In this document: positions 7,096 to 62,913 of the stretch, piece by piece | Layout: each line of letters begins with the position of its first letter | Numbering within the stretch: the stretch's first letter is position 1 | DNA from: Albibacterium bauzanense | Lineage (GTDB): Bacteria; Bacteroidota; Bacteroidia; Sphingobacteriales; Sphingobacteriaceae | DNA length: 64,000 bases | NCBI RefSeq assembly: GCF_004339765.1 | Contig: NZ_SMGO01000001.1 | Span: forward strand, 806,001 to 870,000 | Direction of reading: 5' to 3' | Translations under genes and position numbers: made by a program | Notes under the pieces: generated by a model | The model's database searches: none | What the model saw: only the letters and a program-made list of their open reading frames with translations | What the model was told of the DNA's origin: nothing

Positions 7096-7248
7096 CAATA
7101 AGAATAACTGAATAGGAAAATGTAGGCAAAGAAATACAAAAGCAATTAAAAGGAATCTTCTCCCAATTTATATTAATAATGATACACTCCTTAATACACT
7201 ATAAATCAGAAATATAACAACTAACTATTTTACATGCTTACTTTTCCA

Positions 7249-7256
7249 TAAGTTTG
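7249..7256 (+). promoter_or_regulatory. -7 promoter element of a single-domain response regulator
   Basis: TAAGTTTG matches TAnnTTTG. Its terminal TTG (7254-7256) is the apparent upstream start of the frame, so that start is very unlikely to be real. The leader to the ATG at 7305 is 48 nt. Confidence 0.5.
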
Positions 7257-7304
7257 GACTCACTTTTGTGCTATTTAAAGCCCAATCAATTGATAGTAAA
7301 TAAT

Positions 7305-7667
7305 ATGACACATAAAATACTAATTCTTGATGACGATTCAGACATCTTGTTTTTCTGCACTTATGTATTTGAGAATCTAGGATTTACTGTAATATCTTCA
7401 AACCATTGTAACGATATTATTGCTCAGGTTGAATCGTCACAGCCAGATATTATTCTAATTGACAATTGGATTCCAGACATCGGAGGTGTAAAAGCAACTC
7501 AACAGCTCAAAGCAACCGAACATCTTAAACATATACCAGTGATTATTTTTTCAGCAAATAGCAACCTGCCCCAATTAGCTGAAGAAGCAGGAGCAGATGA
7601 CTATCTCAGAAAACCTTTTGATTTAGAGGAATTAGAAGGCCTGGCTCTTAAATATGTCAAACCTTAA
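7305..7667 (+). CDS. Single-domain (CheY-like) response regulator
   Basis: A 120-residue receiver domain with no output domain. From the ATG at 7305 the acidic pair is in LILDDDSD, the phospho-acceptor is D53 in IILIDNWIPD, the Ser of IFSANS replaces the usual Thr position, and the Lys lies in DYLRKPF. It probably relays phosphate or binds a partner protein rather than DNA. The neighbouring convergent OmpR-type regulator is not obviously its partner, and no histidine kinase is adjacent. The 17-residue extension to the upstream TTG overlaps the promoter box and was dropped. Confidence 0.88.
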   Translation: MTHKILILDDDSDILFFCTYVFENLGFTVISSNHCNDIIAQVESSQPDIILIDNWIPDIGGVKATQQLKATEHLKHIPVIIFSANSNLPQLAEEAGADDYLRKPFDLEELEGLALKYVKP

Positions 7668-58726: not shown

Positions 58727-58734
58727 TACATTTG
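58727..58734 (+). promoter_or_regulatory. -7 promoter element of the Cys-rich small protein gene
   Basis: TACATTTG matches TAnnTTTG and ends 4 nt before the ATG at 58739, so the message may be leaderless. A TTG at 58709 is only 15 bases upstream of the box. Confidence 0.45.
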
Positions 58735-58738
58735 TTAC

Positions 58739-59128
58739 ATGTTCAAGAGGCAGATTGCTTTCATACTTATCTTAACGCTAGTAACATCTAGCTTTAGTAG
58801 ATTTTTTATCTATGCTGGCTTCGAACTTAACCGCGATTATATTTCTTCAACACTTTGTGAGAATATAGACATGCCTGAATTACATTGTAACGGACAGTGT
58901 TATTTGGCAAAGAAAATTCAACAAGCTCAGGAAAAGGAGAAAAATAATACACAAGATCAAAAGAAAGGTAACTATCAAGAAGCTTTCATTACTCAAAAGG
59001 TTGTTTTAATAACTCCCTTTACGTATGTAGAGACCTTTACGGCTACGGAAATGCCTTTCGATCTTCCGGTACAGCCAGCAACAATCTTCCACCCTCCAAA
59101 GATCAACTCAAGCATCTTAATAGGATAA
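58739..59128 (+). CDS. Small Cys-motif membrane/secreted protein of a probable copper cluster
   Basis: A 129-residue protein. A hydrophobic N-terminal segment (about residues 5-22) precedes LCENIDMPELHCNGQCYLAKK, a compact cluster of three Cys and one His. A Gln/Lys/Glu-rich charged region (about 60-82) and a beta-rich C-terminus with several Pro follow. I do not recognise a named family, but the CENxxxPxLHCxGxC pattern looks like a metal or heme ligand set. It is upstream of a TonB receptor and a Met-rich lipoprotein, which suggests copper. Function is not assigned. Confidence 0.72.
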   Translation: MFKRQIAFILILTLVTSSFSRFFIYAGFELNRDYISSTLCENIDMPELHCNGQCYLAKKIQQAQEKEKNNTQDQKKGNYQEAFITQKVVLITPFTYVETFTATEMPFDLPVQPATIFHPPKINSSILIG

Positions 59129-59236
59129 ATTTCATTTGTCCGCATTATTAATTCATAAGAAGCTTATATTATTATATAGGTGGGCTATGACCTATAATTT
59201 CATGCTTAGGATATAAAATCCTTCAATATTAACTTA

Positions 59237-61543
59237 ATGAAATCTTTCAGATACTATTATCTGTTGATGGTTTTCGTGGTGCTTTCTATTTCAGCAAATG
59301 CACAAGATGGAACCATTACCGGACATATTTATGACTCGCAGACGCGCCAGCCATTGGTTGGAGTTACAATCAAAAATCAAGCAGAGGCATTGCTCTCTCA
59401 GTCAGAGCAAGGTGGTTATTTTAAGATCAACTTAAATTCACCCGACAGCCTTATTCAGGTTGCTATGCTTGGATACAAAACTCAATGGGTTAAAATCAAT
59501 CAAAATAATAATGACCTCAATATTCAATTGGATGAAGATGCAATTAACTTAAATGAGGTTCGGGTAACCGGATTTAATGAAGGCAGAAGCAATAAAGAAA
59601 CTGCTGGCTCAATTGGGTTAATTACTACAAAAAACATAGAAAGAGGAAATGGTCTTTCTATACAACCGGCTCTGAATTCAATTCCGGGTGTTAAAATGGA
59701 ACAGAGTACTCTTTCTGAAGCAAGAATATCTATCAGAGGAAACGGGGTTCGTGCAAGCTATGGAATCCGGAATATTAAAATATACGTTAACGAAATTCCA
59801 GTTACTGAAGCAGATGGAACAACGCGTATAGAAGCTTTGGATATGAACAGTATTGGACGGGCTGAAATAATTAAGGGCCCGGCATCCAGCATTTACGGAG
59901 CAGGTGTAGGTGGTGTTATTAATTTTCAATTGCAGCGCTCTCCTTATCAGGAACAAAGCATTGAACTAAGCGGCCAAGTAGGTTCTTATAATTTGCATCG
60001 CTTTGCCACAACTTATAGAAATGGTGGTGATAAAATGAATAGCTATGTATCTGTAGGATGGCAAGAATATGATGGCTATAGAGAACATAGCAGCGATATG
60101 CGCCGTTTCATGACTGCTAACTTTCAATTTTTCCCGAGCGACAAGCGTATTATAACCGTACTTTTAAATCGGACAACTCAACATTCGCAAATACCGGGCG
60201 GCTTGACCTTAGATCAGGTTAATACCGATCCGACTCAAGCAAACGCTTCAAACTTAGATAAACAAGCAGGAAGGTATCAAAACTGGACGCGGATTGGTCT
60301 AGGCCAACGCTATCAATTCAATGATCAATTCTCTAATAGCAGCAGTGTTTTTACCTATTTCTATGATTTGGATCATCCTCTACCCTATGCTTATCTGAGA
60401 AATTACTATCAAAGCTACGGAGGTAGAACTCGTTTTACTTACGAACCAAATTTTGCTATTCTTCCAACCCAGTTCACTCTTGGTGCAGAATTCAATAACG
60501 GAATTACCAAAGGATCTCAATTTGTAAACAATCAAGGTACAGAAGGTGCTATAAATTCTACCATTGACTATAACAATGATAATTTCTCATTATTCTATCA
60601 ATCAATCACAGAACTAAGTGAAAATACCGATCTTATTTTAGGTTTAAGTTATAACAGCTTAAATTATAACGTTAAAAACTATCTGGATAAAACACAGAGT
60701 GGGACCAAGAAATTTGACCCGCAAGTTTCACCCAGGATAGCACTTAGCCATAACTTTGGTGAGGCATTAAGCCTGCATGCAAGTGTTAGCTCAGGTTTTT
60801 CTCCTCCTTCTAGTTCAGAAATAAAAAATGTAGACGGACTTATTAATCCTGAAATTCAGGCAGAAAAAGCCATAAATTATGAAATTAATGCAAAGGGTAA
60901 TTTATTAAAATCAAAACTGGCTTATGATCTGTCTCTTTTCAAAATGGATATGAAAGGCGAATTAATTGCTCAATCAGTTCAACAAGGCATCACGATCTAT
61001 AATAATTCGGGAAAAACTATCCACAATGGTATAGAGCTTGCCCTGTCTTACCAGCTTTTAAATGAAGAAAATAGTAATATCATTACCAGTCTGCGTCCAT
61101 TCACAGCAATAACTTACTCAGATTTTAAATTTGACGATTATAAAAAACTCAACGCCGATAATGAAGTTATAGCAGACTATAGTGGCAATGAACTTACAGG
61201 TATTGCACCTTGGGTAGTTATGGCAGGATTAGACCTGGAAACAAAACTGGGCTTGTATTTTTATGGTAGTTATTTCTATAATGATAAAACTCCTCTGAAT
61301 GATGCCAATACAGACTATCACTCATCTTACCATATTGTAAATACAAAAATAGGATTTAAAAAACAGCTGAATGAGGTGTTTGTAGTAAATATATATGGTG
61401 GAATAGACAATCTGTTGAATAAAAAGTATAGTTCTATTCTTTCATTAAATGCTACTGGTTTTGGAGGTGCTGCTCCTGCTTATTACAATCCATCTCCTGA
61501 ACGAAATGGCTATGCAGGTCTCAGTATTAAATATTTATTATAA
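59237..61543 (+). CDS. TonB-dependent receptor with N-terminal carboxypeptidase-like domain
   Basis: A 768-residue outer membrane transporter. The signal peptide ends SISANAQ. Residues about 23-105 are a CarboxypepD_reg-like domain (GTITGHIYDSQTRQPLVGVT). The TonB box region LNEVRVTGFNE follows, then the plug with IKGPASSIYGAGVGGVINF, and a beta barrel ending in an aromatic-rich YAGLSIKYLL. No SusD-like partner is present, so a metal or siderophore-type ligand is more likely than a glycan. The flanking Cys- and Met-rich proteins suggest copper. It is co-oriented with both. Confidence 0.9.
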   Translation: MKSFRYYYLLMVFVVLSISANAQDGTITGHIYDSQTRQPLVGVTIKNQAEALLSQSEQGGYFKINLNSPDSLIQVAMLGYKTQWVKINQNNNDLNIQLDEDAINLNEVRVTGFNEGRSNKETAGSIGLITTKNIERGNGLSIQPALNSIPGVKMEQSTLSEARISIRGNGVRASYGIRNIKIYVNEIPVTEADGTTRIEALDMNSIGRAEIIKGPASSIYGAGVGGVINFQLQRSPYQEQSIELSGQVGSYNLHRFATTYRNGGDKMNSYVSVGWQEYDGYREHSSDMRRFMTANFQFFPSDKRIITVLLNRTTQHSQIPGGLTLDQVNTDPTQANASNLDKQAGRYQNWTRIGLGQRYQFNDQFSNSSSVFTYFYDLDHPLPYAYLRNYYQSYGGRTRFTYEPNFAILPTQFTLGAEFNNGITKGSQFVNNQGTEGAINSTIDYNNDNFSLFYQSITELSENTDLILGLSYNSLNYNVKNYLDKTQSGTKKFDPQVSPRIALSHNFGEALSLHASVSSGFSPPSSSEIKNVDGLINPEIQAEKAINYEINAKGNLLKSKLAYDLSLFKMDMKGELIAQSVQQGITIYNNSGKTIHNGIELALSYQLLNEENSNIITSLRPFTAITYSDFKFDDYKKLNADNEVIADYSGNELTGIAPWVVMAGLDLETKLGLYFYGSYFYNDKTPLNDANTDYHSSYHIVNTKIGFKKQLNEVFVVNIYGGIDNLLNKKYSSILSLNATGFGGAAPAYYNPSPERNGYAGLSIKYLL

Positions 61544-61554
61544 TAAAAAGAACA

Positions 61555-62913
61555 ATGTTAATTACAGTTAAAATGAAACATACAATTCAATTAATCGTTG
61601 CTTCTTTTTTCATTATTCTGCTTGCATCATGCGAGCAGAGTAATGAAAAAGGCATGGATATAAAATCCATTGATAATGAAAGTGCGGATGCTATTAACCC
61701 ATATCTTACAAAAGATCAGAATGGGAATATAGTCATGAGCTGGACTTCAAAAGACCCGATAGATTCACTGTATCGATTAAAATATGCGCTATATAATGAA
61801 AGCGATAATACATTTGGTGAGATTATAACGGTTCCGACTTCCGCAGACTTAAGCACTTCGCCAGAAAGTATGGGGAAGGTTGCTTTTAAAGCTGATGGCA
61901 CAATAATCGCTGTTTTCGGAAAGAAAATTGAAAGTCATGTAAACTCTTTCGCAGGAGCAATTTACTACAGTGTTTCTACAGATAACGGCAAAAACTGGTC
62001 GGCAGAAGAGATTATACATTCAGATACTTCACAAAATACAAGCCATAGCTTTTTTGACATAGAAACACTTAAGGATGGAGAAGTAGCAGCCGTTTGGTTA
62101 GACGGAAGGTTTAGCTCAACTGAAAAGGGATCTGCCTTGTTTTTCGCAAAAACAGAAGGTAACATCTTTGGAATAGATACTCTTTTAGATACAAACACCT
62201 GCGAATGCTGCAGAACAGACATCCTCTCTGATGATATGGGTAATATCCACATCGCTTACAGAAGTATTGCTCTTCCTGGCGGTGTGTTTGGAAAACAGGT
62301 TAGAGATATGGTATATCTTTCATCAAACGATGGAGGAGAATCCTTTTCAACGATAAAACCAATCAGTGCAGATAACTGGCAAGTTGAAGGTTGCCCACAC
62401 ACTGGCCCAAGCCTTGCTGTAATTAATCAACAAGTTAATGCAGTTTGGTTTACTGCTGGCGGAGGTGCTGGCTTATATTATACATCTTCTCCAAATCTAT
62501 CTGAAGACTTTAAAAACCGCTCTTTACTTAGCGCTAATGGAAGACATCCTCAAATGGCCACATTCGCTCAAAATAAGCTAGCAGTTGTTTATGAAGAAAA
62601 TGCAGTAACTCCTTCTAATGCAATGGAAGAAAACAATGCGCATGCATCTATGAAAATGCATAATGCAAGTATGGATATGAACATGGACACGACAGAAATG
62701 GTTATGGAACATTCAGCTATGGAAAAGGCTGATAAAGCACAAATAGTTCTTCAGCTAATTGAAAATGGAAATAAAACTGAAACGATAAAAGTTACCGATG
62801 GAAAACAACCCAATCATCATGCAGTTATTGCTCCTATTAATAATGAGGTACTTGTAGCCTGGATACACGAAGAAAACGGAAAAGCATCAATCAACTATTC
62901 TAGAATATTTTAG
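61555..62913 (+). CDS. Sialidase-fold (BNR/Asp-box) lipoprotein with Met/His-rich and CxCC motifs
   Basis: A 452-residue lipoprotein; a signal peptide leads to LLASC. A beta-propeller carries Asp boxes STDNGKNW and SNDGGESF. TNTCECCRTD provides a tight three-Cys cluster. Residues about 357-391 hold nine Met and three His (HASMKMHNASMDMNMD...), typical of copper-binding proteins. No sialidase catalytic Arg triad or Tyr is evident, so the propeller is probably not an enzyme on glycans. It starts 11 bases after the TonB receptor and is co-transcribed. An alternative start at 61573 exists. Confidence 0.82.
   Translation: MLITVKMKHTIQLIVASFFIILLASCEQSNEKGMDIKSIDNESADAINPYLTKDQNGNIVMSWTSKDPIDSLYRLKYALYNESDNTFGEIITVPTSADLSTSPESMGKVAFKADGTIIAVFGKKIESHVNSFAGAIYYSVSTDNGKNWSAEEIIHSDTSQNTSHSFFDIETLKDGEVAAVWLDGRFSSTEKGSALFFAKTEGNIFGIDTLLDTNTCECCRTDILSDDMGNIHIAYRSIALPGGVFGKQVRDMVYLSSNDGGESFSTIKPISADNWQVEGCPHTGPSLAVINQQVNAVWFTAGGGAGLYYTSSPNLSEDFKNRSLLSANGRHPQMATFAQNKLAVVYEENAVTPSNAMEENNAHASMKMHNASMDMNMDTTEMVMEHSAMEKADKAQIVLQLIENGNKTETIKVTDGKQPNHHAVIAPINNEVLVAWIHEENGKASINYSRIF

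Follow-up and report, generated by a model that had tools for sequence, protein, structure and literature searches.

What does a receptor of the outer membrane that lacks a SusD partner do between a small cysteine-containing protein and a lipoprotein rich in methionine and histidine? This question is raised by three genes of Albibacterium bauzanense that lie in the 64,000-nt stretch of contig NZ_SMGO01000001.1 analyzed here (positions 806,001 to 870,000; hereafter, the window, to which the coordinates below refer). A sequence-only reading of this DNA had suggested copper handling at the cell surface as the likely role of the cluster. Our analysis supports a more specific answer: we consider it probable that the three genes form an operon that imports copper, presumably as a chelate, under the control of the nascent chain encoded by the first gene, and that the operon is a variant of the cruR-crtA system with a new third component. 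The locus is laid out as follows:

58739..59128, + strand: upstream open reading frame (uORF), 129 aa, with a signal-like N-terminus, C-x9-CxGxC and a C-terminal FHPP; proposed copper-responsive nascent-chain regulator (CutF/CruR-like)
59129..59236, + strand: intergenic region between the uORF and the receptor gene, 108 nt; proposed attenuation region
59237..61543, + strand: TonB-dependent transporter (TBDT), 768 aa, with an N-terminal carboxypeptidase-regulatory-like domain; nearest solved structures PqqU/YncD
61555..62913, + strand: CxCC propeller lipoprotein, 452 aa, with a BNR_2 match; predicted beta-propeller

The three open reading frames (ORFs) run head to tail, with gaps of 108 nt between the uORF and the receptor gene and 11 nt between the receptor and lipoprotein genes, and the next ORF after the lipoprotein encodes an aldo/keto reductase. 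In the receptor, domains of the CarbopepD_reg_2, Plug and TonB barrel types are recognized, and no SusD-like gene lies downstream. Thus, the consecutive arrangement on one strand and the absence of a SusD partner, both pointed out in the earlier reading, hold.

The three families also co-occur across genomes, a point that the earlier reading had named as a check. Genome contigs were scanned with the lipoprotein alignment, and the best 80 of 576 relatives were kept as named loci, 79 of which carry titles taken as Bacteroidota (the exception, L147, is titled Chlorobiota). The receptor gene lies directly upstream of the lipoprotein gene in 71 of these 80 loci, and a uORF precedes the receptor in 61, so that the order uORF, TonB receptor, CxCC lipoprotein is found in 61/80; seven of the 19 loci without the full trio have less than 2 kb of upstream sequence. 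In a class-level sample of 149 Bacteroidia genomes, the uORF family is present in 86, a lipoprotein match at 1e-15 in 28, and a strong match (E <1e-70, a cut-off picked after the E-values were seen) in 13; in seven of these 13 genomes, a uORF lies 2.7-2.9 kb upstream on the same strand, as judged by eye from the coordinates.

Copper handling by the linked operon is well supported by context. Downstream of 36 uORFs in related genomes, the first gene encodes a TonB receptor in 20 cases, MbnP in nine and YtkA in three, and the second genes, present in 31, include those for a di-haem peroxidase (8), a PepSY_TM protein (7), a BNR_2 protein (5) and a protein with the Pfam YHS domain (2). The same families, namely TBDT, PepSY_TM, MbnPH and Sco, are described for proteobacterial cruR operons in the available passages of PMC9426467, PMC12914433 and PMC13038864. 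Together with the CruR/CrtA precedent, this context upholds the proposed role of the cluster in copper handling, with the small protein more likely a regulator than a metal carrier.

The small first gene and its promoter

Three features of the first gene enter the argument:

58856..58900, + strand: codons of the three-Cys motif C40-x9-C50-N-G-Q-C54, from the alignment of relatives
59087..59098, + strand: codons of F117-H118-P119-P120, the proposed arrest motif, nine residues before the stop
58727..58734, + strand: promoter -7 box of the Bacteroidota type, TACATTTG (TAnnTTTG), separated by 4 nt from the start of the uORF

The small protein of the window, whose N-terminus includes a hydrophobic stretch of 15 aa with a mean Kyte-Doolittle value of 2.18, shares an identical 15-residue frame, C-x9-CxGxC, with its family; the frame is found in 102 of 104 relatives, with the G replaced by K in a few. 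Of the Cys/His motif noted earlier, the cysteines (C40, C50 and C54) are invariant, whereas His is unconserved within the motif. Just before the stop, there is a second motif, F[HRQ]PP, most frequently FHPP (61 of 102) and next FRPP (15). The spacing from the last Cys to the Pro-Pro pair (PP), which was measured in 102 of the 104 uORFs (one has no PP end and one, where the frame is cut, no Cys motif), is 66.3±2.3 residues (range 63-77), and the linker between the two motifs is poorly conserved (mean top-residue frequency 0.24). PP falls inside the last 15 residues in 60 of 61 trio uORFs. Because profile A2 had been filtered on PP, this test was run in the relatives with a profile confined to the N-terminal 72 columns of the alignment, which gave 36 of 36, the training rows of that profile being among the sequences tested. 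Both positions of PP draw on the full set of four Pro codons, indicating a constraint on the peptide rather than on the RNA. The ribosome tunnel and the Sec channel together conceal approximately 66 residues, and with a matching spacing, the Cys motif would emerge as PP is decoded.

The promoter is placed close to this gene. In 34 of 66 trio-set uORFs, in 18 of 36 uORFs of relatives and in the window, a -7 box (we take TAnnTTTG to be the Bacteroidota -7 motif) starts 11-18 nt ahead of the start codon, compared to 4 of 391 control ORFs, in which the first ATG served as the start. With the box abutting the uORF start, a near-leaderless message is predicted. Furthermore, a Crp/Fnr-like TGA-N6-TCA palindrome is found upstream of the uORF in 29 of 67 cases (2.3 in shuffles); of the 18 loci with both elements, 17 have the centre of the palindrome 28-30 nt ahead of the -7 box. 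This fixed distance supports the -7 box and suggests an activator of the Crp/Fnr family at these loci, where a regulator of that family is likely to control the copper uptake operons. The palindrome carriers comprise many non-Pedobacter loci, among them L130, L142, L151, L155 and other Chitinophaga, Pontibacter and related loci; none was found in the 130 nt upstream of the window uORF.

The anatomy of the uORF suggests a translation-arrest sensor, and a regulatory uORF that responds to copper, of the type represented by CutF and CruR, is more likely than a metal carrier. Were the small protein instead a periplasmic copper carrier with an incidental C-terminal PP, its three invariant Cys and signal-like N-terminus would be accounted for. 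However, the position and spacing of PP are kept despite the drift of the linker, the small gene comes ahead of the others in the loci examined, its start lies right next to the promoter box, and CutF is detectable only without its signal peptide, according to the accessible part of PMC9973294; we therefore regard the carrier as improbable.

The proposed arrest sensor has published counterparts. In the available passages on the cruR-crtA(bfrG)-crpH operon of Bordetella pertussis (PMC9426467, PMC12914433, PMC13038864), a small exported Cys-motif protein with a C-terminal PP likewise comes first, and a TBDT follows, separated from it by 162 nt in B. pertussis and by 108 nt here; Roy et al. report that CruR depends on the distance between its two motifs, and H358, Q356, E337, R395, W265 and Y130 are listed as conserved ligand-site residues of CrtA. 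A PepSY_TM protein is encoded by the third gene in B. pertussis, as it is in sister Bacteroidota operons. The systems differ in several respects. The third gene of the window operon encodes the CxCC propeller instead; transcription starts 45 bp upstream in B. pertussis, as opposed to the near-leaderless start predicted here; CruR is a DUF2946 protein with CXXC and RAPP, whereas the window uORF has FHPP and no DUF2946 match; and the CrtA orthologues are mostly beta- and gamma-proteobacterial.

Bacteroidota have also been counted among the carriers of CutF-like proteins, which are described as common there, with TonB-like genes as frequent neighbours, in the accessible part of PMC9973294, and the uORF class is therefore not new in kind. 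The published rules for CutF-like proteins specify fewer than 150 aa, PP within the 15 C-terminal residues and a same-strand downstream gene less than 1000 nt away; the window uORF has 129 aa, nine residues after PP and such a gene at 108 nt. An N-terminal signal peptide is a further rule, and at its N-terminus the window uORF has the hydrophobic stretch described above. Compared to CutF of Rhodobacter capsulatus, which is described in the same source as acting through a stem-loop with copper raising expression, it has an extra Cys ten residues before CxGxC. According to the available text of a 2025 survey (PMC12992588), some groups, for example Bacteroidota, lack uORFs with RAPP/RGPP at copper-related genes, and in the available portions of open PubMed Central (PMC) papers on CruR, CutF, CrtA, CrpH, XusAB, BtuBG and arrest peptides, we found no description of the FHPP ruler, the leaderless start or the propeller partner.

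The genome that contains the window encodes two further uORFs of this family (L048, minus strand; one at 7122-7493), which, by single by-eye assignments, head operons with MbnP-like and peroxidase-like lipoproteins and with a second lipoprotein and a TonB-like gene. In a family relative, a His-rich DUF2946 protein with RGPP near its stop (L168:1399-1794, +) is encoded just upstream of a TonB-receptor-like gene; it resembles a sister uORF that would serve a different metal, perhaps zinc.

The receptor and the propeller lipoprotein

The receptors found beside the propeller fall into two groups. In the alignments of the sequences that passed the length filters (69 receptors and 79 lipoproteins), 12 receptors are window-like, comprising that of the window and those of 11 Pedobacter loci that are 63-71% identical to it, and the other 57 are ~50% identical among themselves and 21-25% identical to the window receptor, with different conserved His/Met residues in the two groups. 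By this comparison, the uORF and the propeller appear as the constant parts while the receptor subfamily changes. The closest solved relatives of the window receptor are PqqU/YncD (E 1.6e-39), and its model, of moderate quality (predicted local distance difference test score, pLDDT, of 70.8), aligns with YncD (Z 34.7, 580 residues, 2.5 A) and with PqqU (Z 33.1, 583 residues, 2.6 A). These relationships would be compatible with a non-copper substrate, such as pyrroloquinoline quinone (PQQ), a siderophore or another thiophilic metal. However, the receptor scores 198.8 bits against the PqqU model of NCBIfam (NF041535), below the cut-off of 1200 bits, and copper-related partner genes recur across the uORF family, so that import of another substrate seems to us a poor prospect.

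The features of the lipoprotein that are relevant here are the following:

61573, + strand: likelier lipoprotein start M7, conserved in 94% of 79 sequences
62200..62211, + strand: codons of C216-E-C218-C219, with Cys invariant in the 79-sequence alignment
62389..62400, + strand: codons of G279-C280-P281-H282, invariant in the same alignment
62545..62547, + strand: codon of H331, likewise invariant
62611..62724, + strand: Met/His-rich insert, residues 353-390, clade-specific by the alignment and predicted disordered (AlphaFold)

The lipoprotein has the lipobox LASC, and its AlphaFold model is a beta-propeller (pLDDT 83.5), presumably with seven blades as in its structural matches, which include CylK (Z 32.9, 342 residues, 3.2 A), PLL lectins, sialidase-type propellers and YncE. 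The candidate copper ligands C216, C218, C219, C280, H282 and H331 are conserved in 100% of the 79 lipoproteins. Judging from the DSSP string rather than from coordinates, CxCC, GCPH and H331 would each sit where one blade passes into the next, in the connecting loops, and a further loop, which may be on the same face, would hold the Met/His insert. One 35-residue stretch contains 12 Met and His residues, a number reached in 0 of 20,000 sequence shuffles, which shows that it is no accident of composition; the insert is present in the window and a minority of the 79 lipoproteins, and its pLDDT is below 50 at residues 353-390. Hence, both lipoprotein features singled out in the sequence-only reading exist, but only CECC is family-invariant, the Met/His stretch being clade-specific.

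An RIP motif is a hallmark of GH33 sialidases. The lipoprotein family is annotated elsewhere as sialidase, and the BNR_2 match, as well as the sialidases that are the top PDB sequence and Foldseek matches, would fit a true sialidase or a glycan-binding protein in a cluster that handles glycans. However, the window protein has no RIP motif, its family is invariant at Cys and His residues, and the neighbours are copper genes; on these grounds, a true sialidase was rejected, and we consider glycan handling highly improbable. The name 'sialidase' also appears in a figure legend of a paper on copper limitation in Nitrososphaera, in its accessible part (PMC7785015).

Searches of open PMC papers aimed at a propeller of this type in connection with copper returned no description of one. 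Its Rhodobacterales plasmid relatives keep CxCC and GCP in all eight proteins, and all eight plasmid regions opened (of 65 records) contain multicopper oxidase, CopC/D, plastocyanin or copper-binding genes within 5 kb; these neighbours add to the contextual support for copper handling, although several of the regions share one arrangement, leaving fewer than eight independent cases. Two other propeller relatives, L067:5061-6473 (-) and L074:6798-8237 (+), have an extra C-terminal stretch in which DPVCGM and additional Cys occur and which, on visual inspection, resembles the metal-binding YHS domain.

As to the side of the membrane on which the propeller would act, acidic residues after the lipid Cys are a surface-export signal. 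In the lipoprotein family, K/R occupies position +1 in 33% and position +3 in 40%, and at least two acidic residues in +1..+5 occur in 4 of the 48 scored sequences (the lipobox pattern was found in 48 of 79, several misses being starts set too far upstream or lipoboxes outside the pattern). The surface location proposed earlier thus finds no support in the residues following the lipid Cys, and because these are unlike the export signal, we favour, without certainty, a periplasmic holder over a lid of the BtuG/XusB type.

Such a lid would sit on the receptor at the cell surface, as in BtuG/BtuB and XusB/XusA, and catch a copper chelate or chalkophore outside the cell. It would share with these systems the architecture of a TBDT with an N-terminal carboxypeptidase-like domain and a propeller lipoprotein; structures similar to the receptor model include the BtuB1-BtuG1 and BtuB3-BtuG3 entries, and the receptor subfamily can switch while the propeller remains. 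The available passages on BtuG and XusB (PMC10404256, PMC13142918) point the same way, in that BtuBG and XusABC of Bacteroides likewise combine a TBDT with a seven-bladed propeller lipoprotein, along with a PepSY protein in Xus. The ligands in those passages are vitamin B12 or iron-siderophores, neither CxCC nor a Cys-PP uORF is mentioned in them, and XusB is annotated as DUF4374, which is not among the Pfam matches of the window lipoprotein at E<=1. However, given that basic residues are common and acidic ones scarce after the lipid Cys, and that the Rhodobacterales relatives lie in copper clusters whose opened regions show no annotated TBDT, we view the lid as unlikely, albeit a serious competitor, and the periplasmic holder is carried forward below.

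A model of copper uptake and the observations that weigh on it

Under the model we favour, the operon would take copper across the outer membrane and shut itself off once copper suffices. The nascent chain of the uORF would be exported while still bound to the ribosome, such that, with F[HRQ]PP at the peptidyl-transferase centre, the three-Cys motif ~66 residues out would have just emerged at the membrane, where it could sample copper. Without copper, the ribosome would pause at PP, and the downstream genes would be expressed; with copper, the pause would be relieved, and transcription or translation would stop short of the receptor gene, in line with the mechanism reported for CruR in Bordetella. 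The copper complex would enter the periplasm through the TonB receptor, and the propeller lipoprotein would hold the copper via the invariant CxCC, GCPH and H331 and pass it to periplasmic users, for example, cytochrome oxidases or nitrous oxide (N2O) reductase.

Several observations speak against this model or parts of it. The response to copper has one direction in CutF and the reverse in CruR, and the polarity assumed here is therefore a guess from operon logic. The window uORF has no useful match in Pfam or NCBIfam; DUF2946 (PF11162), in particular, matches neither this uORF nor any protein of the genome, and membership in that family was rejected. The nine residues after PP exceed the distance from PP to the stop in the other 101 measured uORFs (1-7 residues), FHPP differs from RAPP/RGPP, the motif for which tests exist, and the loci behind profiles A1 and A2 had been chosen in part for the motifs. 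The mean z-score of RNA folding is -1.77 in the gap between the uORF and the receptor gene (61 loci), -0.89 upstream of the uORF (59) and -2.0 after the lipoprotein stop (60); because the first value is similar to the last, a distinctive RNA structure in the gap was rejected. The window receptor belongs to the minority subfamily (12/69) and is devoid of the plug residues His157/Met159 conserved in the majority, so that its substrate could differ. Finally, no experiment on the family was found in open PMC papers.

A broader reading, which we offer tentatively and with less confidence than the model for the window itself, is that leaderless copper-sensing arrest uORFs (C-x9-CxGxC, a ~66-residue ruler and F[HRQ]PP) control copper uptake across Bacteroidota and that, in one branch, TonB receptors that can be exchanged for one another are paired with a copper-binding propeller not described before (four Cys and two His), which would serve as a hand-off protein or lid. 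Outer-membrane copper acquisition is known for a few receptors only. If the reading is correct, Bacteroidota, N2O reducers included, gain a defined copper-uptake operon, a new arrest motif is added to the copper-sensing nascent chains, and a propeller family now labelled sialidase acquires a testable role.

Respiratory enzymes

The sequence-only reading had also suggested that the copper might be destined for respiratory enzymes. The genome of A. bauzanense itself has haem-copper oxidases (three COX1 matches over the cut-off), two SCO proteins and one NosZ. Across the 149 genomes, in tests uncorrected for phylogeny, there was no general association of NosZ with the uORF (38/86 vs 22/63 genomes, P=0.31) or with the lipoprotein when all 28 matching genomes were counted (14/28 vs 46/121, P=0.29). 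NosZ was more frequent in genomes with a strong lipoprotein match at the post hoc cut-off of 1e-70 (10/13 vs 50/136, P=0.007) and in the set of seven genomes with the trio (6/7 vs 54/142, P=0.017). As the association is confined to these strong-match subsets, the link between the operon and respiration is only suggestive. In G050 (contig 9), a gene for a CDCC-type propeller (L077:5157-6353, +) lies ~4.5 kb from nosZ on the same strand.

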